Shown here one piece after another: positions 33,797 to 58,941 of a stretch of 64,000 bases of DNA. This stretch comes from Sphaerochaeta globosa str. Buddy. GTDB lineage: Bacteria > Spirochaetota > Spirochaetia > Sphaerochaetales > Sphaerochaetaceae. The DNA lies in NCBI RefSeq assembly GCF_000190435.1, contig NC_015152.1, positions 1,184,458-1,248,457 of the forward strand. The letters run 5' to 3'. The position numbers and the translations under genes are program-made. The number at the start of each line of letters is the position of its first letter. Position 1 is the stretch's first letter. Under the pieces are notes generated by a model, which saw nothing but the letters and a program-made list of their open reading frames with translations, searched no databases and was not told the DNA's origin.

Positions 33797-34366
33797 ATGG
33801 CACAGATGACCAAACTAGCACTTGCCCAATCACTGAAGCAATTGATGGCTGAACGAACCTTGGACAAGATTACCGTCAAGGAGATAGTTACCCGTTGCGG
33901 AGTCAATCGGCAAACGTTTTATTACCATTTCAAAGATATCTATGATTTGCTGGACTGGATGTTTACTAACGAGGGACAAGAGTTTTCCCGCAGTTATCCC
34001 GAAACGAAAACCAACGATGATGGTGAGTCGGCCATTCGCAATATGTGCACCTATTTGAAAGATAACAAGCAGATGGTGATCAATATTTACCATAGTCTTG
34101 GACGTGAGTTGCTTGATCGCTATCTGTGCGGGGAGATGTCCAAGCTTTTGCATACCACGCTCAGTTACCGGGCACAAGTCTTCGGAGCCTCGGAGAGTGA
34201 CCTTGCTTATTTAATTTCCTTCTACAAGCATGCTTTTGTTGGATCTATTCTGGATTGGGTGCATGATGAACTTGATGGCAATATTGACGAAATCGTGCAG
34301 AAAATGGTTCCTTTATTGCAGGGAACCTTCGATGCTGCCCTTAAAAGGATGGCTTTAAGCCGTTAA
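33797..34366 (+). CDS. TetR/AcrR-family regulator
   Basis: The 189-residue regulator has an N-terminal TetR helix-turn-helix (KITVKEIVTRCGVNRQTFYYHF, written here as its two halves ITVKEIVTRCGVN and RQTFYYHFKD). Its C-terminal domain resembles the DhaS/TetR_C type (RELLDRYLCGEMSKLL, then YKHAFVGSILDWV). The inducer is unknown. GAGGG precedes the ATG. It lies 94 bases upstream of the chaperone-usher pair on the same strand and may control it; a palindrome in its own promoter suggests autoregulation. Confidence 0.85.
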   Translation: MAQMTKLALAQSLKQLMAERTLDKITVKEIVTRCGVNRQTFYYHFKDIYDLLDWMFTNEGQEFSRSYPETKTNDDGESAIRNMCTYLKDNKQMVINIYHSLGRELLDRYLCGEMSKLLHTTLSYRAQVFGASESDLAYLISFYKHAFVGSILDWVHDELDGNIDEIVQKMVPLLQGTFDAALKRMALSR

Positions 34367-34460: not shown

Positions 34461-35225
34461 ATGAATCAAAGTGCTCATAAAACAATGAAGAAGGCTCTGC
34501 TCACACTTGGTGTGCTCTTGTTCTTGCTTTCTTCTGTACATGCGTATCAGTTTTCTCCGTTGGAACAATCATTTCAGCCAACCGGTGCAGAAAGTACGAA
34601 AACGTATACCATCGTCAATGATAGCAACGATTCAATTGCCATAAGTATCTCCGCTCTCATTCGCGATCAGGATGAACAAGGCAATGAAGTCAACACTCCT
34701 GCTGATGCCTATTTTTCTGTCGTTCCCAACAAGTTGGTAGTTCCTCCGCAGAGCAGCTGGGTTGTACGGGTTCAGTATCGTGGGCCGCGCACGGTTACCA
34801 ACGAGCTTTCTTTTCGACTGAAGGCTGAGCAGATACCTTATTCTCAAGGTAGGGCGAGTACTGATAAGGGAATGTTCAATTTCCTCTATATTTATACAAC
34901 CAGCTTATACGTACTCCCTTCCCGTGTTGTGGAAAATGTAGCAATCAGAACATTGGCCGCCTCCACTATGGAAGATGGATCTCCTGCTCTCTCTGTTACG
35001 TTGGCCAACCTGGGGACGGTTCACCAACTTCTTATCTCTGCAATTGTAGAAATTAAGGACAGCAAAGGAAATTCAGTAGTATTGCAAGGTGCTGAAGCTC
35101 TTCCCGGTGTTGATGGCATGAATATATTGGCAAAGAAAACGATTACCAAGAAGGTTCCCTGGCCTGAGGGACTTTCCCGCGATGCCGGGGTAACCTACCA
35201 AGCCACCATCAAGTATACAAAATAG
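34461..35225 (+). CDS. Periplasmic pilus-assembly chaperone (PapD-like)
   Basis: The 254-residue protein has a signal peptide (ALLTLGVLLFLLSSVHA) and the two Ig-like domains of chaperone-usher chaperones. The first shows ESTKTYTIVNDSNDSIAISI near residue 45, VVPNKLVVPPQSSWVVRVQY near 90 and ELSFRLKAEQIP near 120, matching the G1/F1 strand region. The second contains YTTSLYVLPSR near residue 145. The pattern is closest to the archaic (Csu/sigma-type) group. It keeps pilin-like subunits folded in the periplasm and delivers them to an usher, encoded 39 bases downstream. No subunit gene is adjacent. Confidence 0.78.
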   Translation: MNQSAHKTMKKALLTLGVLLFLLSSVHAYQFSPLEQSFQPTGAESTKTYTIVNDSNDSIAISISALIRDQDEQGNEVNTPADAYFSVVPNKLVVPPQSSWVVRVQYRGPRTVTNELSFRLKAEQIPYSQGRASTDKGMFNFLYIYTTSLYVLPSRVVENVAIRTLAASTMEDGSPALSVTLANLGTVHQLLISAIVEIKDSKGNSVVLQGAEALPGVDGMNILAKKTITKKVPWPEGLSRDAGVTYQATIKYTK

Positions 35226-35264
35226 GAAGAGTTTTCTCCTTCCTGGTAAAGAAAGGACTTTCAC

Positions 35265-38200
35265 ATGAAGAGAAGAGGGTTTGCACACGCAGTGTTCCTG
35301 GTGGTCTTGCTTGTGCTTTTGACCCTCTTTCTTTCTGCCTTCATGTGGACCTGTTTTCATCAGCCTGCCGGGACGCAGCAGGTCTCAAGCATCAAAGTAG
35401 TTTCCCCTGTGTCAGGCAAACCTACAGCACCTGTTGCTCCGGCACAAGAAGAACCAAAAGTCCTTCCAAGTATACCTTCTGTACCACGTTTCAAAGCAGT
35501 GCCAGCAATCGAAGAACTCAAGATTGCCGTTAAACCTTTGCCTCCTCCGGTCCATCTGGTCTCTTTCCCCCTCTTTGAACCAATTGTAGAAGTCGAAGAG
35601 CCTAGGATTCCTGCTGTGCCAACCTTTAAAGGACCACCAACCAGTAAAGCTTTTATTCCTGATCCTCCCTATATGTTTGAACCTTTGGTGCTTTCCGAAG
35701 AAGAGTTTGCTATGTTCTATCCAGAGCCGAGCTCCGAAGAACCGCTTTCTGACGATTTCTGGGCAGACTTCTTTGTTGTAGGTGAAGATGCAACAATTGC
35801 TTACGAAGATGGATTTTACTTCCTCGACCTGTTTGTAAATGATGAGCGGGTTGGTGATATTGAGGTGGAATTCAGCCAGGAACGCCGCCTTCTCAGCGCG
35901 GAGGATCTTACCTATTATGTCGGTTCCTATATCACCAAAGCTGCGTATGAGCGGGTTTTTGGGGATGGTTTGCAATTCCTCTCCCTGAAGGATTTGATAA
36001 GCCGTGGGGTGGATGCGCGCTATGATGCCGCTGGATTCGCTATTTATCTAAGTTTTGATATCGCCGATATGCCTGAACGTTCGGTCAGTGTAACAGCCTC
36101 TTCAATCAACCGAAGGGAGCAGTACGGTATGAGTGGAGCTATTGTGCTTAAGCCCGTAAAATTTGCTTTGGCAAGTTCTTTAAGCCTCTATGCAATGATG
36201 GATTATCCCTCAGATTTTTCACAGATCAACAACCGCCTTGTATCACTTTCAGTCTCCAATAGGGCATCAGTTTTGGGTATCGGGCTGAACTTCTATTTCT
36301 CACTCTCTTCAAAAGCCCCTGTTTTCAACCCCGGAAGCTGGAACGGTTTTTATGATTTCGTTGAATCGAATCATCGTTTGAGCTTCGGCAACGTTGGGAC
36401 CAACCTCAGTTCAGTTTCTGGTTCTTCCTCCAATTTCGGCTTAACCTTCGAAAAGAACTATGCATATGGTACCGGCAGTGCCAAGGGAAACCAATTTGAA
36501 TACCGGATTGTGCTCGTGGAACCCTCAAATGTGGAAATTTCCATCAATGGGGAGACGGTGTTTACCCGTAAGTTCCAAGCTGGAACATACCGATTGCGTG
36601 ATTTTGTTTTTACACAAGGTGCCAACCAGATCAAAATTACTACCACTCCTGATGCCCATCCTGATGATATAAAAGTGGAATACGTCGACATGGGCTACGA
36701 CTACCGTCTCCTTGGAAAGGGTGACAGCTTGTATGGTTTCGGTTTCAGCGTTCCTAAAGTCAAGAGTACAACAGCCGGGGGAACTATCAATTTGCCTTGG
36801 CTGAATAGTCAGTATCTTTCCTATTATCTTGACAAGTTCACCGCAACATACTATCAACAGACCGGTCTGACCGACACCTTTACCTTCACCACCGAACTTG
36901 CATTCACTCCTGGTATCTTCAGCGGTACGGTGAACGGAGTGCTTGCCACCTTGGTGGGAACCTCACAGGTTCAGATCACCTTGGGTCTGGATGCGAGCAA
37001 GCAGACTCCTTCGTTTACGGGAAGTTTGAGCCATAGATTCAGCGGTAAGCAGGATAGCAAGTTTGGAACCCTCAGTGCTACGTTGAATCACAGCATACCT
37101 GCTCGTGCATCAGGGGTGGCCTACAATTCCGTATCAACTCTCTCTCTTTCCTATTCCGGAAGCTTCACCGAGAAGATCCGCTATACGTTATCGAGCAATA
37201 TCATCTATAATACTGCTGCTGCAGGGCCCAGTTGGAGTCTCTCCTTCGCCTCAGGCTTCTCTCCCTTCAAGGGTTTCTCCCTCAGCGGTTCAATTACAGC
37301 AAACGGATCGGATACCAATCCGTTCAAACCCACTGTCACGGCACAGGTCAGCGGCAGTTACTCCCTCAATCCCAAGCTCAGCGCCAACTCTTCGACCAGC
37401 GTCCAAAGTGGTACTCCTTTCTTTGATGTTTCCGCCACGAGCTCTGCCGGTCTGAGCTGGCGGCCATCGAGTAATGACAACCTTAATCTTTCGCTAAGTT
37501 CCTTCAAGTTTGATGATCCCAAGAACCATTCAGTCGTCGGTTCCTGGTCGCACAGCGGTAATCTCAGTTCCTTCTCGTTGAGACAGCAGGTTTCCAACTC
37601 GTATCAGAACATGTCAACCACCTTCACGGCCAGTACCTCGTTCGCCTATGCAGGTGGGGCCTTCGCCATTGGCAAGTCGGTGAACGACTCTTTCTTGCTG
37701 GTTAAGCCTGTCGGGGAACTCAGGAAGAGCGAAATTTCGGTTGCCCGCAGCCTAGATAGTGCTCCGTCTTACCTGCCAAGGCCTTTGGGCAGTGCACTGT
37801 ACAATAGTATCTCCACCAACGTAAAGAATAGTGTGGTAGTGTTTTCCAGCGGTGCTACCGAATTTTCTACCGGTTCTTCCTTTGTCTTCGAGATTACTCC
37901 CAGAAGCAGGCAGTCCTTTGTTGCCAAGCTTGATGTACAGCCTTCCTTCACCGTAAGCGCAAGATTGCTGATGACTGATGGAAGCCCGTACGTCCAGTAT
38001 TCTTCTCCTGTCTACAAGATTGCAATTGATGAGAACGGCAATGAGGAACTTGTCCGTGACGATTCGTTGTACTTATTCACTGATCAGGAAGGGCGGTTCA
38101 TCCTCAGCGAAGTAAAGAACGGTACCTATTTGTTTGATTTGCAGGTCCAGGATCTATGGTACGCGGTACGGTTTACCGTTCCGGAGTTGGATTCTGAGGA

Positions 38201-38570
38201 ACTGGGTTTGGACCGTGTTCTCCTGCTGGAGGATTTCTGGGTAGCCGACCCGGCCTTTGTTGAACGGATTATTGTCAAGGATGTATTCACAGGAGCCCAA
38301 GTAGCAGAAGAAGAGAATGTATTCGGATCTGAACTAGCCGTCGGTTACGATGCTGAAGTGACACTCTCCAGCATTGACCGAATTAGTGAGGAGACTTTCT
38401 GGAATATCATTTTCCCACCGTTTGAAGAGAGTGACTTCAGTTTCGAGCAGTTCGATGAAAACTATGTTACTGATGCTGATTTCCAGTTCGATGAGAGTAC
38501 ATTCGAGGAAATGGTCGGAATTCCCGAGCAGGATGAAACAGCCCAACAGGTGTTCACTGCAGCTCCCTAA
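35265..38570 (+). CDS. Usher-like outer-membrane protein with N-terminal anchor
   Basis: This 1101-residue protein begins with a membrane helix (AVFLVVLLVLLTLFLSAFMW), then about 120 residues rich in Pro and Glu. An usher-like core follows: an N-terminal domain (LISRGVDARYDAAGFAIYLS), a barrel start with FNPGSWNGFYDFVESNHRLS, and the plug-region match VEISINGETVFTRKFQAGTY at about residues 422-441, continuing RLRDFVFTQGANQ. A long series of amphipathic beta strands reaches residue 860. A C-terminal domain and an acidic tail (about 1045-1101) complete it. Ushers form the pore for chaperone-delivered subunits. The N-terminal extension and acidic tail are not usual. It is paired with the chaperone upstream. 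Confidence 0.75.
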   Translation: MKRRGFAHAVFLVVLLVLLTLFLSAFMWTCFHQPAGTQQVSSIKVVSPVSGKPTAPVAPAQEEPKVLPSIPSVPRFKAVPAIEELKIAVKPLPPPVHLVSFPLFEPIVEVEEPRIPAVPTFKGPPTSKAFIPDPPYMFEPLVLSEEEFAMFYPEPSSEEPLSDDFWADFFVVGEDATIAYEDGFYFLDLFVNDERVGDIEVEFSQERRLLSAEDLTYYVGSYITKAAYERVFGDGLQFLSLKDLISRGVDARYDAAGFAIYLSFDIADMPERSVSVTASSINRREQYGMSGAIVLKPVKFALASSLSLYAMMDYPSDFSQINNRLVSLSVSNRASVLGIGLNFYFSLSSKAPVFNPGSWNGFYDFVESNHRLSFGNVGTNLSSVSGSSSNFGLTFEKNYAYGTGSAKGNQFEYRIVLVEPSNVEISINGETVFTRKFQAGTYRLRDFVFTQGANQIKITTTPDAHPDDIKVEYVDMGYDYRLLGKGDSLYGFGFSVPKVKSTTAGGTINLPWLNSQYLSYYLDKFTATYYQQTGLTDTFTFTTELAFTPGIFSGTVNGVLATLVGTSQVQITLGLDASKQTPSFTGSLSHRFSGKQDSKFGTLSATLNHSIPARASGVAYNSVSTLSLSYSGSFTEKIRYTLSSNIIYNTAAAGPSWSLSFASGFSPFKGFSLSGSITANGSDTNPFKPTVTAQVSGSYSLNPKLSANSSTSVQSGTPFFDVSATSSAGLSWRPSSNDNLNLSLSSFKFDDPKNHSVVGSWSHSGNLSSFSLRQQVSNSYQNMSTTFTASTSFAYAGGAFAIGKSVNDSFLLVKPVGELRKSEISVARSLDSAPSYLPRPLGSALYNSISTNVKNSVVVFSSGATEFSTGSSFVFEITPRSRQSFVAKLDVQPSFTVSARLLMTDGSPYVQYSSPVYKIAIDENGNEELVRDDSLYLFTDQEGRFILSEVKNGTYLFDLQVQDLWYAVRFTVPELDSEELGLDRVLLLEDFWVADPAFVERIIVKDVFTGAQVAEEENVFGSELAVGYDAEVTLSSIDRISEETFWNIIFPPFEESDFSFEQFDENYVTDADFQFDESTFEEMVGIPEQDETAQQVFTAAP

Positions 38571-38606: not shown

Positions 38607-38646
38607 AGGGACGTTATTGTACGAATTCAATCAAGGAAGTAACAAC

Positions 38647-38976
38647 GTGCGGAGCGATATAATCAACGAGGTATTATCAGTTGAGGATAGAGCGCAGAAG
38701 ATCATAAGAGACGCCGAACGAACAGCAAGAGATACTATTACCGACGCCCAGACCGAAGCCAATGAACTTGTTCGATCCTCCCTCAGGCAGGAGCGTGAAC
38801 GTTGTCATGCCTTGCTGCAAGAAGCTGAGGCCGATGCCGCTCTCCAACTATCTGAGTTTGAAGCAGGTTTGCAACGTGTCGAGACTTTGCAAGAAGAAGA
38901 ACTTGATCGGATTGCTAAAGTCATTGTAGAAAAGGTGTGCAAAACCGACCTTGAAAGCTATCTGGGAATGCAATGA
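38647..38976 (+). CDS. V-type ATPase stalk subunit (G/H-like)
   Basis: This 109-residue, strongly charged helical protein (RAQKIIRDAERTARDTITDA, continuing as a coiled coil) fits the peripheral-stalk subunit G/H of bacterial V/A-type ATPases, which pairs with subunit E to hold the stator. A heptad-like pattern covers about residues 10-90. The GTG at 38647 is selected because AAGGAAG precedes it; a TTG at 38617 is less likely. It starts the operon and overlaps subunit C by four bases. Confidence 0.82.
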   Translation: MRSDIINEVLSVEDRAQKIIRDAERTARDTITDAQTEANELVRSSLRQERERCHALLQEAEADAALQLSEFEAGLQRVETLQEEELDRIAKVIVEKVCKTDLESYLGMQ

Positions 38977-40067
38977 GCAGAGACCCTGTATCCGTATATG
39001 GATTCATCAACGCCAAGCTTCGAGCAAAAATTGGCTTGATGCGTCAAGACTGTTTAGCAGAATCTCTGCTTAAGTCAGCCTCTCTTGTGGAGGCTGTGGG
39101 TGTTTTGCGCGATAGTCGCTACCAGCAGGTGGCCCAAGCCTATGACCTGACTGGAGATCTGCAGCAGATGGAGTTGGTCCTCCTGCAGAAAGAGATTGAA
39201 ATGTATCGGGAAGTCCAAAAGTATCTGGAAGGTAGTCCTGCAACTTTTGTCCAACACCTTTTGGGCAAAATTGAAGTGGATAATCTGAAGAACTGTATCA
39301 GACTCTGGTACAGCAGCATCATCAGACACCGACCGATCAGACATCGAAGTGAGTACCTTTTCAAGGATATCATACTGCATCCGATAGACTGGACAGCCTT
39401 GATCAATGCAACTACGTGGGATTCTGTTCTCAAGGCAGTCAAACAAACTCCATACTGGGAGATTCTTAAAGACGTTACGGTCCAAAATTTGGAAACGGAC
39501 GGCCTTTTTGATCTCGAATGTGCTCTGGACCGATTGTGGTATGTTTCACTCATGCAGAGTACCAGCGCATTGTCCAAGCAGGATAGGGAAGTGGCAACTT
39601 CAATCTTTCTGCTTGAAATAGATTTGCATAACCTTACCATCCTTGTTCGCCATGGTGTGTACCACCAAATGGAAGCAGAAAAGCTAAGGAAGCTACTCTT
39701 GCCGTGGGGTAATGTTTTTGCTAGTTCCTACACTGAAAAATATCTTGCACAAAAGAGTGAGGAACGTAATCCGATTGATATCATCAACCGATACTTCCCT
39801 GGTCTGGAGCAGATACAGGTTGAAGAGAATCGCTTGCACGTACATCAGGATGAAGCAAGCGTGTTGGAGAACCTTAAGATTGAAGGGTTTTTGGCGACTC
39901 GCAGGCAAGCCCTGTACAGGAAAATGCTTGCAACCGATCCCTTTACCATCGGTCTCTGTTTGGCATACTTCTTCTTGTTCAAGGAAGAGACAGCCATGAT
40001 CAAGGCTATTCTGAACGGTAAATATTACGGATACGATGAGGAATACATCAGGGGGGTATTGGGATGA
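38973..40067 (+). CDS. atpC: V-type ATPase subunit C
   Basis: This 364-residue protein of the AC39/subunit-d family is the funnel-shaped central-stalk cap linking the rotor ring to subunits D and F. Three repeated helical modules are suggested by YGFINAKLRAKIGLM near the start, KIEVDNLKNCIRLWY near residue 100 and LEIDLHNLTILVRHG near 215. It overlaps both neighbours (ATGA type). Confidence 0.88.
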   Translation: MSRDPVSVYGFINAKLRAKIGLMRQDCLAESLLKSASLVEAVGVLRDSRYQQVAQAYDLTGDLQQMELVLLQKEIEMYREVQKYLEGSPATFVQHLLGKIEVDNLKNCIRLWYSSIIRHRPIRHRSEYLFKDIILHPIDWTALINATTWDSVLKAVKQTPYWEILKDVTVQNLETDGLFDLECALDRLWYVSLMQSTSALSKQDREVATSIFLLEIDLHNLTILVRHGVYHQMEAEKLRKLLLPWGNVFASSYTEKYLAQKSEERNPIDIINRYFPGLEQIQVEENRLHVHQDEASVLENLKIEGFLATRRQALYRKMLATDPFTIGLCLAYFFLFKEETAMIKAILNGKYYGYDEEYIRGVLG

Positions 40068-42055
40068 ACTTGTTCACAAGGCCGATGAAATTGCTTACAG
40101 CTGTCGTACTGGAACAAACCAGTGAGGCGGTGGTTAAGGCACTGCTCGAGTTGGGTGTGCTCGATTTTGTCCATATCAATAAGCTTGATCCCCAGCAGAT
40201 GGAAAAGCTTTCCAGCAGACCCAGTTCGGTCAACCGGGCCAACTTGGAGGAAATGCGAAAGCGTGTGGAGGCGTTGCTCCGCCAAGGCCATCTCGATATT
40301 CCCTCCAGTGAAGTACTTGATGTAAAGAAACTGGAAAAACCCGAGCTTGAAGAGTATAAGCGAATTTTGGACGAGCTTACCTCGAATCTGCTCACGTTGA
40401 AGGAAAAGCAAAAAGAGAGCAATCAGCAATTGATGGGCCTCGAAGAGATGAGACGGTACATCAATGAGAACAAGGGTGAATACCTTGATTTGAGAGTGGG
40501 TGAAATTACCCATGGCAAAATGGAAGACCTTGGGAGTAAACTTGCTGTGTACGGTGGACTGCTTGATCAGATTCCATCCACTGTGAAGTATATCTGCCTC
40601 ACGCTTCGCCGTGATGTGTCCCAAGTCGATCCCTTGCTGGAGAAATTCGGCTGGGTTGAATCCAGTGATGTCGAATTACAAAAGAAGGCAATTTTCCTGA
40701 TCAAGGGGCGTCTGGATGCAGAGCATCAGAAGGCCTTACAAAGCAGAACCGAGGTTGAAAAAGCGGTCGATGCGGTGGTCAAGCAGCAGCAAAGCCAATT
40801 GTTTACTATATGGTCGAATCTTCGGTTGAATGAACTATGTGATCAGATTCGTTCCTATTTTGCCTATACCCGCAATACGACCTTGTTCTCCGGTTGGGTT
40901 CCTTCCGACCAGGCTGACAGGGTCAGGGATGCAATTCTTGAAGCCAGTGAAGGACAGAGTGTCATAGAGTGGACCAATGCCACTGAAGTTCCCCGGCAGG
41001 AAGTCCCTGTAGCGATCGCTTCTCCCAAAGCTCTCAGACCCTTCCAGAATATTGTCAACAATTACAGCACACCCGAGTATGGAACAGTCAACCCAACAAT
41101 TTTTGTCATGGTTGCCTACCTCTCGATGTTCGGCTTGATGTTTGCCGATGTCGGCCAAGGTCTGGTGCTTTTGCTCGTAGGATTGCTCGGTTCCCGTTCG
41201 TATAAGAAGAATCCTCTCAAGCCTGATGGGATGCTCAGCCGCAACGTTACTTCGTTGCTGGTGTACTTGGGACTCTCTTCCATGGTTTTCGGTGCCTTGT
41301 TTGGTTCCTACTTTGGATTGGGCCTGTTTCCCGCCCTCTGGTTCAACTATGAGGCGGCGGTTGCCGGTCATGCCGAGGGAGCGTTGGTTCATGATGTATA
41401 TGGAATTCTTGGCATTACCATCAAATTCGGTATAATCATCATCTACACAGGGTTATTCCTCAACTGGGTCAACCTGATTCGCAAGCGGGCCTTTCTCACC
41501 TTGTTCTTGGATAAGAATGGCTTGATTGGTGGATTGCTCTTCGGCATCGGGTTGTACATGGGTTTTGGCTTCGTAGGAAGCGGCTATCGTCAGTTCCCCC
41601 AAGCAACCTGGATTGGTCCTGTGATAACACTCTGCCTAATCCTGCTTTTCGTGCGCGGCTTCCTTTCGTACTTCCTGTCAGTTCGCAGGGGAGGGCCGAA
41701 GCATGAGGTGGGTAAGCTCTTGCTCGATTGCGTGATGGAATGGCTGGTTGATGTGTTGGAGATCTTTACCGGGTATATGTCCAATACGCTTTCCTTCATG
41801 CGAGTAGCCGGACTCGGTATCGCACACGCATCTCTGATGGAATCCTTCAAAATGCTTTCATCCATGGTGGATGGATTCGGCGGTATTGGCATTTTCATTC
41901 TCGGCAATGTCCTGGTAATCGTATTGGAGGGTCTGAGTGCCGGCATTCAGTCGCTTCGTTTGAACTATTATGAATTCTTCTCAAGGTATTTTACCGGAAA
42001 GGGTGTAGCGTATGAGCCGGTGGGGCTCAATACAACCTCTTCCGAGAAGAGATAG
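40064..42055 (+). CDS. atpI: V-type ATPase subunit I
   Basis: This 663-residue stator subunit couples ion flow to rotation. The N-terminal half (about 1-330) is cytoplasmic and rich in coiled coil. The C-terminal half has seven to eight membrane helices, with GLMFADVGQGLVLLLVG near residue 365 and LSFMRVAGLGIAHASLMES near residue 580, where the Arg would line the ion half-channels. It follows subunit C with a 4-base overlap. Confidence 0.93.
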   Translation: MNLFTRPMKLLTAVVLEQTSEAVVKALLELGVLDFVHINKLDPQQMEKLSSRPSSVNRANLEEMRKRVEALLRQGHLDIPSSEVLDVKKLEKPELEEYKRILDELTSNLLTLKEKQKESNQQLMGLEEMRRYINENKGEYLDLRVGEITHGKMEDLGSKLAVYGGLLDQIPSTVKYICLTLRRDVSQVDPLLEKFGWVESSDVELQKKAIFLIKGRLDAEHQKALQSRTEVEKAVDAVVKQQQSQLFTIWSNLRLNELCDQIRSYFAYTRNTTLFSGWVPSDQADRVRDAILEASEGQSVIEWTNATEVPRQEVPVAIASPKALRPFQNIVNNYSTPEYGTVNPTIFVMVAYLSMFGLMFADVGQGLVLLLVGLLGSRSYKKNPLKPDGMLSRNVTSLLVYLGLSSMVFGALFGSYFGLGLFPALWFNYEAAVAGHAEGALVHDVYGILGITIKFGIIIIYTGLFLNWVNLIRKRAFLTLFLDKNGLIGGLLFGIGLYMGFGFVGSGYRQFPQATWIGPVITLCLILLFVRGFLSYFLSVRRGGPKHEVGKLLLDCVMEWLVDVLEIFTGYMSNTLSFMRVAGLGIAHASLMESFKMLSSMVDGFGGIGIFILGNVLVIVLEGLSAGIQSLRLNYYEFFSRYFTGKGVAYEPVGLNTTSSEKR

Positions 42056-54038: not shown

Positions 54039-58754
<4,716 letters not shown>

Positions 58755-58825
58755 TATCATTATTCCAGTCCCGTGGGCTGCCAAGGCCGGTCGTGCGAGT
58801 TATCTCGCGCTCCCAGGCGTTGGCC

Positions 58826-58941
<116 letters not shown>

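Follow-up and report, generated by a model that had tools for sequence, protein, structure and literature searches.

The chaperone and usher genes

We analyzed a window of 64,000 nucleotides from Sphaerochaeta globosa str. Buddy (NC_015152.1, forward-strand positions 1,184,458 to 1,248,457), whose genome comprises 3,316,466 bases in one contig; coordinates are those of the window unless the genome is named. Two open reading frames (ORFs) on the + strand, at 34461-35225 (254 amino acids, aa) and 35265-38570 (1101 aa) with a spacing of 39 bp, are a chaperone-usher pair, an assignment for which the evidence from predicted folds is strong. The order at the locus is a TetR-type gene, the chaperone, the usher and a V-type ATPase operon, and the pair is the sole one detectable in the genome. 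It is not a product of chance ORFs, because 77 of 100 family genomes, representing 15 of 22 genera, have usher relatives, and because the usher's barrel, together with its C-terminal domains, is under strong purifying selection, with ratios of nonsynonymous to synonymous differences (pN/pS) between 0.06 and 0.25.

The upstream gene (34461..35225, +) encodes a two-domain, PapD-like periplasmic chaperone, according to family profiles and predicted fold. Single-sequence Pfam and NCBIfam searches do not recognize the window's protein; PapD_N is matched in 14 of 17 family chaperones (best 1.9e-7), and EcpB is the only pilus chaperone reached in the PDB by a sequence profile (E 0.031). Its AlphaFold2 model has a mean predicted local distance difference test score (pLDDT) of 84.9, and the top Foldseek matches are CfaA (1.0e-10) and CsuC (1.8e-10). 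The VIA Z-scores to CsuC (14.7), CfaA (14.3) and FimC (13.8) tie within 1 Z, and consequently the archaic and alternative subclasses are not separable by the chaperone's fold. The signal peptide is canonical, with a cleavage site at SSVHA^YQF.

The usher (35265..38570, +) is similarly diverged. Single-sequence Pfam, NCBIfam and PDB searches with the window's protein returned nothing useful, and the Pfam Usher profile (PF00577) has no match in the whole genome; the same profile matches 3 of 18 aligned family ushers (best 1.1e-5) and ushers from other spirochaete families (2e-4). A PDB profile search with the 18 aligned ushers was uninformative, its matches falling mainly on the low-complexity linker described below. 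The AlphaFold2 model (pLDDT 72.0; predicted template modelling score, pTM, 0.54) is recognized as an usher by structure: the best 19 Foldseek matches in the PDB are all FimD or PapC (FimD, 2.9e-29), and VIA Z-scores to FimD and PapC range from 19.6 to 23.2, compared to 16.5 for the best non-usher barrel.

In the model, an N-terminal domain is followed by six barrel strands, a plug, about 18 to 19 more strands and C-terminal sandwiches. The N-terminal domain spans residues 171-276 (35775..36092, +), as judged from the order of strands and helices and from an alignment with 3rfz_B that begins at residue 182. Preceding it is the conserved motif DDFWADFF (residues 163-170; 35751..35774, +), identified by alignment and motif survey; it sits where FimD has its chaperone-binding N-tail, and by that analogy it may serve in docking. 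The predicted barrel occupies residues ~293-796 (36141..37652, +) according to DSSP and to alignments with the FimD and PapC pores, and has 24 to 25 strands when counted by eye on this moderately confident model. DSSP and the alignment place the plug at residues ~400-480 (36462..36704, +), between barrel strands 6 and 7, and the pattern VEISINGETVFTRKFQAG falls within it (strands 413-478). Predicted C-terminal beta-sandwich domains follow at residues ~855-972 (37827..38180, +), a region where 9 of 18 family ushers have CarboxypepD_reg-like matches, and the alignment with FimD runs through residue ~993.

The first-pass annotation, made from the sequence alone, had proposed a PapD-like chaperone, an usher-like partner and a plug-region pattern; the family profiles and folds bear out the first two, and the pattern's position in the predicted plug agrees with the third. 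The usher fold of about 24 strands with a plug, which that annotation offered as a check, is present in the AlphaFold2 model. Its profile search gave a divided answer, as the window's proteins go unmatched singly and their family members match PapD_N and Usher. To count the lack of a profile match as a refutation would mislead, since Pfam is blank here and yet the predicted fold is that of an usher.

Anchor, linker and acidic tail

The usher carries three features outside its predicted usher fold, all described in outline by the first-pass annotation and all recovered here. At its N-terminus is a hydrophobic helix (residues 9-27; 35289..35345, +) with a hydropathy of 2.94 over 19 residues, extending over residues 4-31 in the model. 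This segment, AVFLVVLLVLLTLFLSAFM, has no strict AxA or lipobox site and has a Cys at the helix edge. Next is a Pro/Glu/Val-rich linker (residues 32-165; 35358..35759, +), with 28 Pro and 15 Glu in 134 residues, which is predicted to be disordered by its composition and low pLDDT (below 50 throughout residues 72-181 and for the greater part of 31-70). Its pN/pS is relaxed in close pairs (0.41-0.72). The C-terminal tail (residues 986-1101; 38220..38567, +) is strongly acidic, with 29 D/E versus 3 K/R, and contains the conserved motif FWNIIF (residues 1045-1050; 38397..38414, +), found in the motif survey, whose F1045 is nearly invariant in the alignment. The general form of this motif, F[FW]xx[ILMVF][FYWL], resembles the N-tail's FWADF[FY]; both occur in most family ushers but not in any of the four outgroup ushers. 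The C-tail motif could be a second chaperone-docking peptide.

A survey of 41 family ushers shows how these features vary. All 41 have an N-terminal hydrophobic segment, with one helix in 32 and two to seven in 9, as counted by hydropathy and not by a trained topology predictor. Between the anchor and the N-tail motif lie ~110 residues or more, for the most part with abundant Pro, Glu and other acidic residues. Strict AxA sites are missing at most single-helix usher junctions, whereas cleavage sites are clear in many of the chaperones encoded alongside; ~26 of the 32 single-helix ushers have a Cys close to the edge of the helix. Comparison of two close relatives shows purifying selection on the multi-helix region (pN/pS 0.27) and relaxed constraint on the linker (0.70). 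Judging by these sequences, the multi-helix ushers can hardly be anything but integral to the inner membrane, and inner-membrane anchoring is the likeliest reading for the single-helix ushers, including the window's.

The four outgroup ushers lack the linker and the long acidic tail, their C-terminal tails being 5-34 aa long versus 46-204 aa in complete family ushers. Anchor, linker and tail consequently look like innovations of the family.

Distribution among spirochaetes

Within the genus, 17 of 18 members have the usher, and the exception is a genome that is 80% complete. Across a sample of the phylum, at most 16 of 296 genomes have it, the weakest of these matches (G060) covering the low-complexity N-terminus only. 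For the relatives, some of whose genomes are incomplete, ORF starts are those of the longest frame, and at most loci the usher frame begins no more than a few tens of bases from the chaperone's stop codon.

In four other spirochaete families, which serve as outgroups, the family profile finds ushers of 848-898 aa. Genes at their loci are arranged as pilin-chaperone-usher-adhesin or in a variation on this order, and in three of the four the adhesin has an SCPU domain (1.9e-10, 1.6e-5 and 3.1e-12). Because of this order and these adhesins, the archaic subclass is favoured, and the pathway is probably a non-classical one of archaic type.

Subunit-like genes elsewhere in the genome

The first-pass annotation had remarked that no subunit gene lies nearby. 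This holds for the window, where a hidden Markov model scan of the ORFs found none; it does not extend to the genome, which holds at least eight subunit-like genes away from the pair. A search of the kind that annotation had suggested, for small secreted pilin-like proteins, found five dispersed genes of the A9 family, at genome positions 277273-277806 (+), 628597-629133 (-), 629591-630121 (-), 632084-632614 (-) and 650321-650917 (-), and one three-gene operon at 3233077-3235210 (-). The operon stands beside htpG and is syntenic across the genus; its synteny is kept while its sequences have diverged (L117:8046-10130, L118, L120, L121, L160, L157).

The first whole-genome searches with the A7 and A9 profiles were set aside, and both profiles were rebuilt without signal peptides because these had given many short matches. 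Against 1039 genes, the rebuilt A9 profile returns only subunit-like matches down to E ~0.3, including genes beside the chaperone and usher in other spirochaete families. In hhalign comparisons, A9 reaches profile-profile probabilities of 92-93% with operonic and genus subunits versus 0.6% with a chaperone control. The proteins have signal peptides; their N-terminus is alternately hydrophobic (SFDVSTTIQGI is one example) and could be a donor strand, and their last strand resembles G-x-Y-x-x-T-[VI]-T-F. By sequence comparison, the genes in this genome appear to encode pilin-like subunits homologous to the usher-linked subunits found elsewhere. Pilin-like genes are present in 17 of 18 genus members, and two genera with orphan pairs have a remote four-gene operon homologous to usher-linked subunits. 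At all nine multi-helix usher loci, secreted subunit-like genes follow the usher, up to about a dozen of them. No alternative-type pilin was identified in this genome.

Many of the subunit-like genes have a promoter element in common. The block TTGACATAAGTC, which includes the -35 hexamer TTGACA, occurs with at most one mismatch upstream of 24 of 40 pilin-type genes versus 0 of 341 other genes at the same loci, counts that are non-independent across related genomes and that include downstream operon genes. In the genome studied here, it lies upstream of each of the five dispersed genes (with a single mismatch in one case) and of the operon's second gene, and a version with two mismatches lies upstream of the operon's first gene. 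An exact copy is found upstream of an orphan subunit operon in another genus (L055:5572-5583). The pilin genes thus appear to form a dispersed regulon with a common promoter block. A motif common to the chaperone promoter and the pilin promoters was no better than in shuffled sequences.

Two observations accompany the subunit genes. In another species of the genus (G335), L158:6506-7540 encodes a protein of 344 aa whose match to SCPU is weak (8.7e-4); it may be a two-domain tip adhesin, of a kind not found in the window's genome. In the region C1:628597-634800 of the genome studied here (L099:8595-14768), a dispersed pilin gene (L099:12082-12615) adjoins a TonB-like gene (L099:13014-13670) and an ExbB-like gene (L099:14349-14768), followed by a TonB-dependent-receptor-like gene; the TonB, ExbB and receptor calls were made by eye.

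Neighbouring genes

Directly upstream of the pair, the TetR-type regulator gene (33797..34366, +; Pfam TetR_N 4.7e-9, TetR_C_8 4.4e-19) is conserved in the genus, with an identical order in L014-L018 and L020-L023. The first genes of the V-type ATPase operon (ORFs at 38617..42055, +) begin 46 bp downstream of the usher, and a scan of the intervening gap found no terminator-like site on the + strand. V-ATPase genes lie within 2.5 kb downstream in 24 of 27 single-anchor ushers with enough flank, 3 of the 24 having subunit F only; the linkage is absent for multi-helix ushers (0 of 9). In genus g144 (L129-L131), a short V-ATPase subunit F-like gene follows the usher without the next V-ATPase genes, as if it were a remnant of a lost V-ATPase operon.

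At the 5' end of the usher gene, the first ~30 codons (35265-35354) have a pS of 0.09, compared to 0.66-0.78 for the rest of the gene, between the window and L014, and some close relatives are alike. An RNA hairpin over the start codon is possible (z -2.8; 3 of 10 pairs covarying in the consensus folding), though the case for a conserved hairpin is suggestive only. A complete rRNA operon (16S, 23S, 5S) lies at 54039-58940 (+), where the ORFs listed are not genes. A search of a plasmid collection gave no match.

Proposed mechanism and alternatives

We consider it probable that the pair is a diverged chaperone-usher assembly machine, with its usher held to the inner membrane and its subunits encoded elsewhere. 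The chaperone would enter the periplasm by its normal signal peptide, bind the pilin-like subunits encoded elsewhere in the genome and deliver them to the usher. As in FimD and Csu, the usher's N-tail and N-terminal domain would receive the chaperone-subunit complex, and donor-strand exchange would feed the fibre through the 24-strand barrel. The usher would probably not be released from the inner membrane, owing to an uncleaved anchor of one helix here and two to seven in some relatives, and the disordered linker of at least ~110 residues would act as a leash for the outer-membrane barrel. Such a leash would tie the docking site on the N-tail and N-terminal domain to the inner membrane, where subunits emerge. 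The subunits would be supplied by a separate, dispersed regulon with a common promoter block. With somewhat less confidence, we extend this reading to the family, whose ushers may be single polypeptides integral to both membranes, each with one to seven helices, a disordered leash and an outer-membrane barrel, and where a dispersed pilin regulon may feed one fixed machine.

Several results weigh against this interpretation. Confidence in the usher model is only moderate (pTM 0.54), and the subunits of this genome are identified by sequence, not by predicted fold; the one tested against Pfam had no match. The genome yielded no two-domain tip adhesin, with no convincing match in the search for S3-type two-domain subunits and no match in the search for SCPU domains. 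The block TTGACATAAGTC is absent from the chaperone-usher pair and from the window, a result that gives co-regulation of machine and subunits no support and suggests separate control of the two. Finally, a single-helix anchor is compatible with an unusual cleavable signal peptide or, given the Cys in ~26 of 32, with a non-canonical lipoprotein signal.

The cleavable signal belongs to an ordinary, diverged archaic pathway, in which the helix is an atypical signal peptide and the linker a periplasmic extension of a normal usher, perhaps for envelope binding or for collecting chaperone complexes. We regard this as unlikely, although some points favour it: the window's usher has a single helix, long but compatible with an export signal, and the linker evolves fast, like a passive spacer. 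A cleaved signal cannot account for the two to seven helices of nine relatives, on which the pair compared shows purifying selection, and strict AxA-like sites are missing at most single-helix junctions while being present in many adjacent chaperones. It is improbable that the usher is instead a lipoprotein, with its helix-edge Cys lipidated and its linker hanging from a membrane leaflet. The frequency of this Cys speaks for it, and spirochaete lipoboxes are looser than those of Escherichia coli; but only one member (L133) has the lipobox pattern, the residue preceding the Cys is often T, R, Q, D, F or I, and the Cys is missing in some single-helix ushers (L032, L033, L034, L124, L135, L139).

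The first-pass annotation had suggested that helix and linker bridge the periplasm in a TonB-like way. The idea of bridging is supported insofar as helix and linker are long enough, and it is strengthened because relatives have two to seven N-terminal membrane helices; the analogy with TonB does not go beyond geometry. A bridge that couples the inner-membrane proton motive force to the usher, possibly with a link to the V-type ATPase, would suit the TonB-like layout and the position of 24 of 27 single-anchor pairs just ahead of V-ATPase genes. We consider it very improbable. There is no TonB C-terminal domain (no TonB Pfam match) and no S-x3-H in the helix AVFLVVLLVLLTLFLSAFM, and because both are missing, TonB-like energy coupling is set aside; moreover, none of the nine multi-helix loci has the V-ATPase linkage. 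In known systems, ushers drive assembly with no outside source of energy. Self-secretion has been reported for archaic pili (PMC9452303). The least probable account is a relic pair, no longer making fibres and retained as the head of the V-ATPase operon. The pair does head that operon and is separated from subunit genes, but such a relic is at odds with the low pN/pS of the barrel and C-terminal domains (0.06-0.25) and with the near-universal presence of usher and pilin-like genes in the genus (17 of 18 each, the usher's exception being the genome that is 80% complete).

Relation to known systems

The anchored machine that we favour resembles the archaic (sigma) Csu pili of Acinetobacter in its chaperone fold (CsuC, Z 14.7), its usher architecture and its wide phyletic range, and the SCPU-domain adhesins after the usher in outgroup spirochaete loci are a further likeness to the archaic pathway. 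It differs from that pathway in its usher, which has an N-terminal membrane anchor, at least ~110 aa of linker and a C-tail rich in acidic residues, and, in this genome, by subunits encoded outside the operon. With FimD and PapC of type 1 and P pili, the usher model has in common an N-terminal domain, a 24-strand barrel, a plug between strands 6 and 7 and C-terminal sandwiches; these are the best structural matches, and identity is ~10-14%. Neither FimD nor PapC has an acidic tail; their N-tail is short, and their signal peptide is cleaved. A likeness to the alternative pathway (CfaA, EcpB and TcfC-type) is seen in CfaA and EcpB, which rank high among the matches to the chaperone. The likeness to TonB is one of layout only, with an inner-membrane helix, a Pro-rich, periplasm-spanning stretch and an outer-membrane barrel at the far end; here the barrel is on the same polypeptide, and the TonB domain and motor motif are lacking.

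We know of no inner-membrane-anchored usher, and within the part of the literature covered we found neither a two-membrane or inner-membrane-anchored usher nor a chaperone-usher system in Sphaerochaeta. One account of archaic systems lists proteobacteria, Cyanobacteria and Deinococcus-Thermus, and not spirochaetes (PMC4654587). The pathway is a known one, and an usher of the anchored form proposed here would be a new variation on it.

These results bring a spirochaete family into the range of chaperone-usher pili. Because the Pfam Usher profile misses this form in the genome studied here, counts of similar systems in other phyla may be too low. Should the anchor be retained, an outer-membrane beta-barrel would also be integral to the inner membrane, raising questions about its handling by Sec and BAM and making it directly testable whether a tethered usher aids assembly, and inner-membrane secretion and outer-membrane assembly would be physically coupled. 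A set of pilin genes that is scattered and linked by its promoters hints that several interchangeable subunits or fibres may depend on a single machine.

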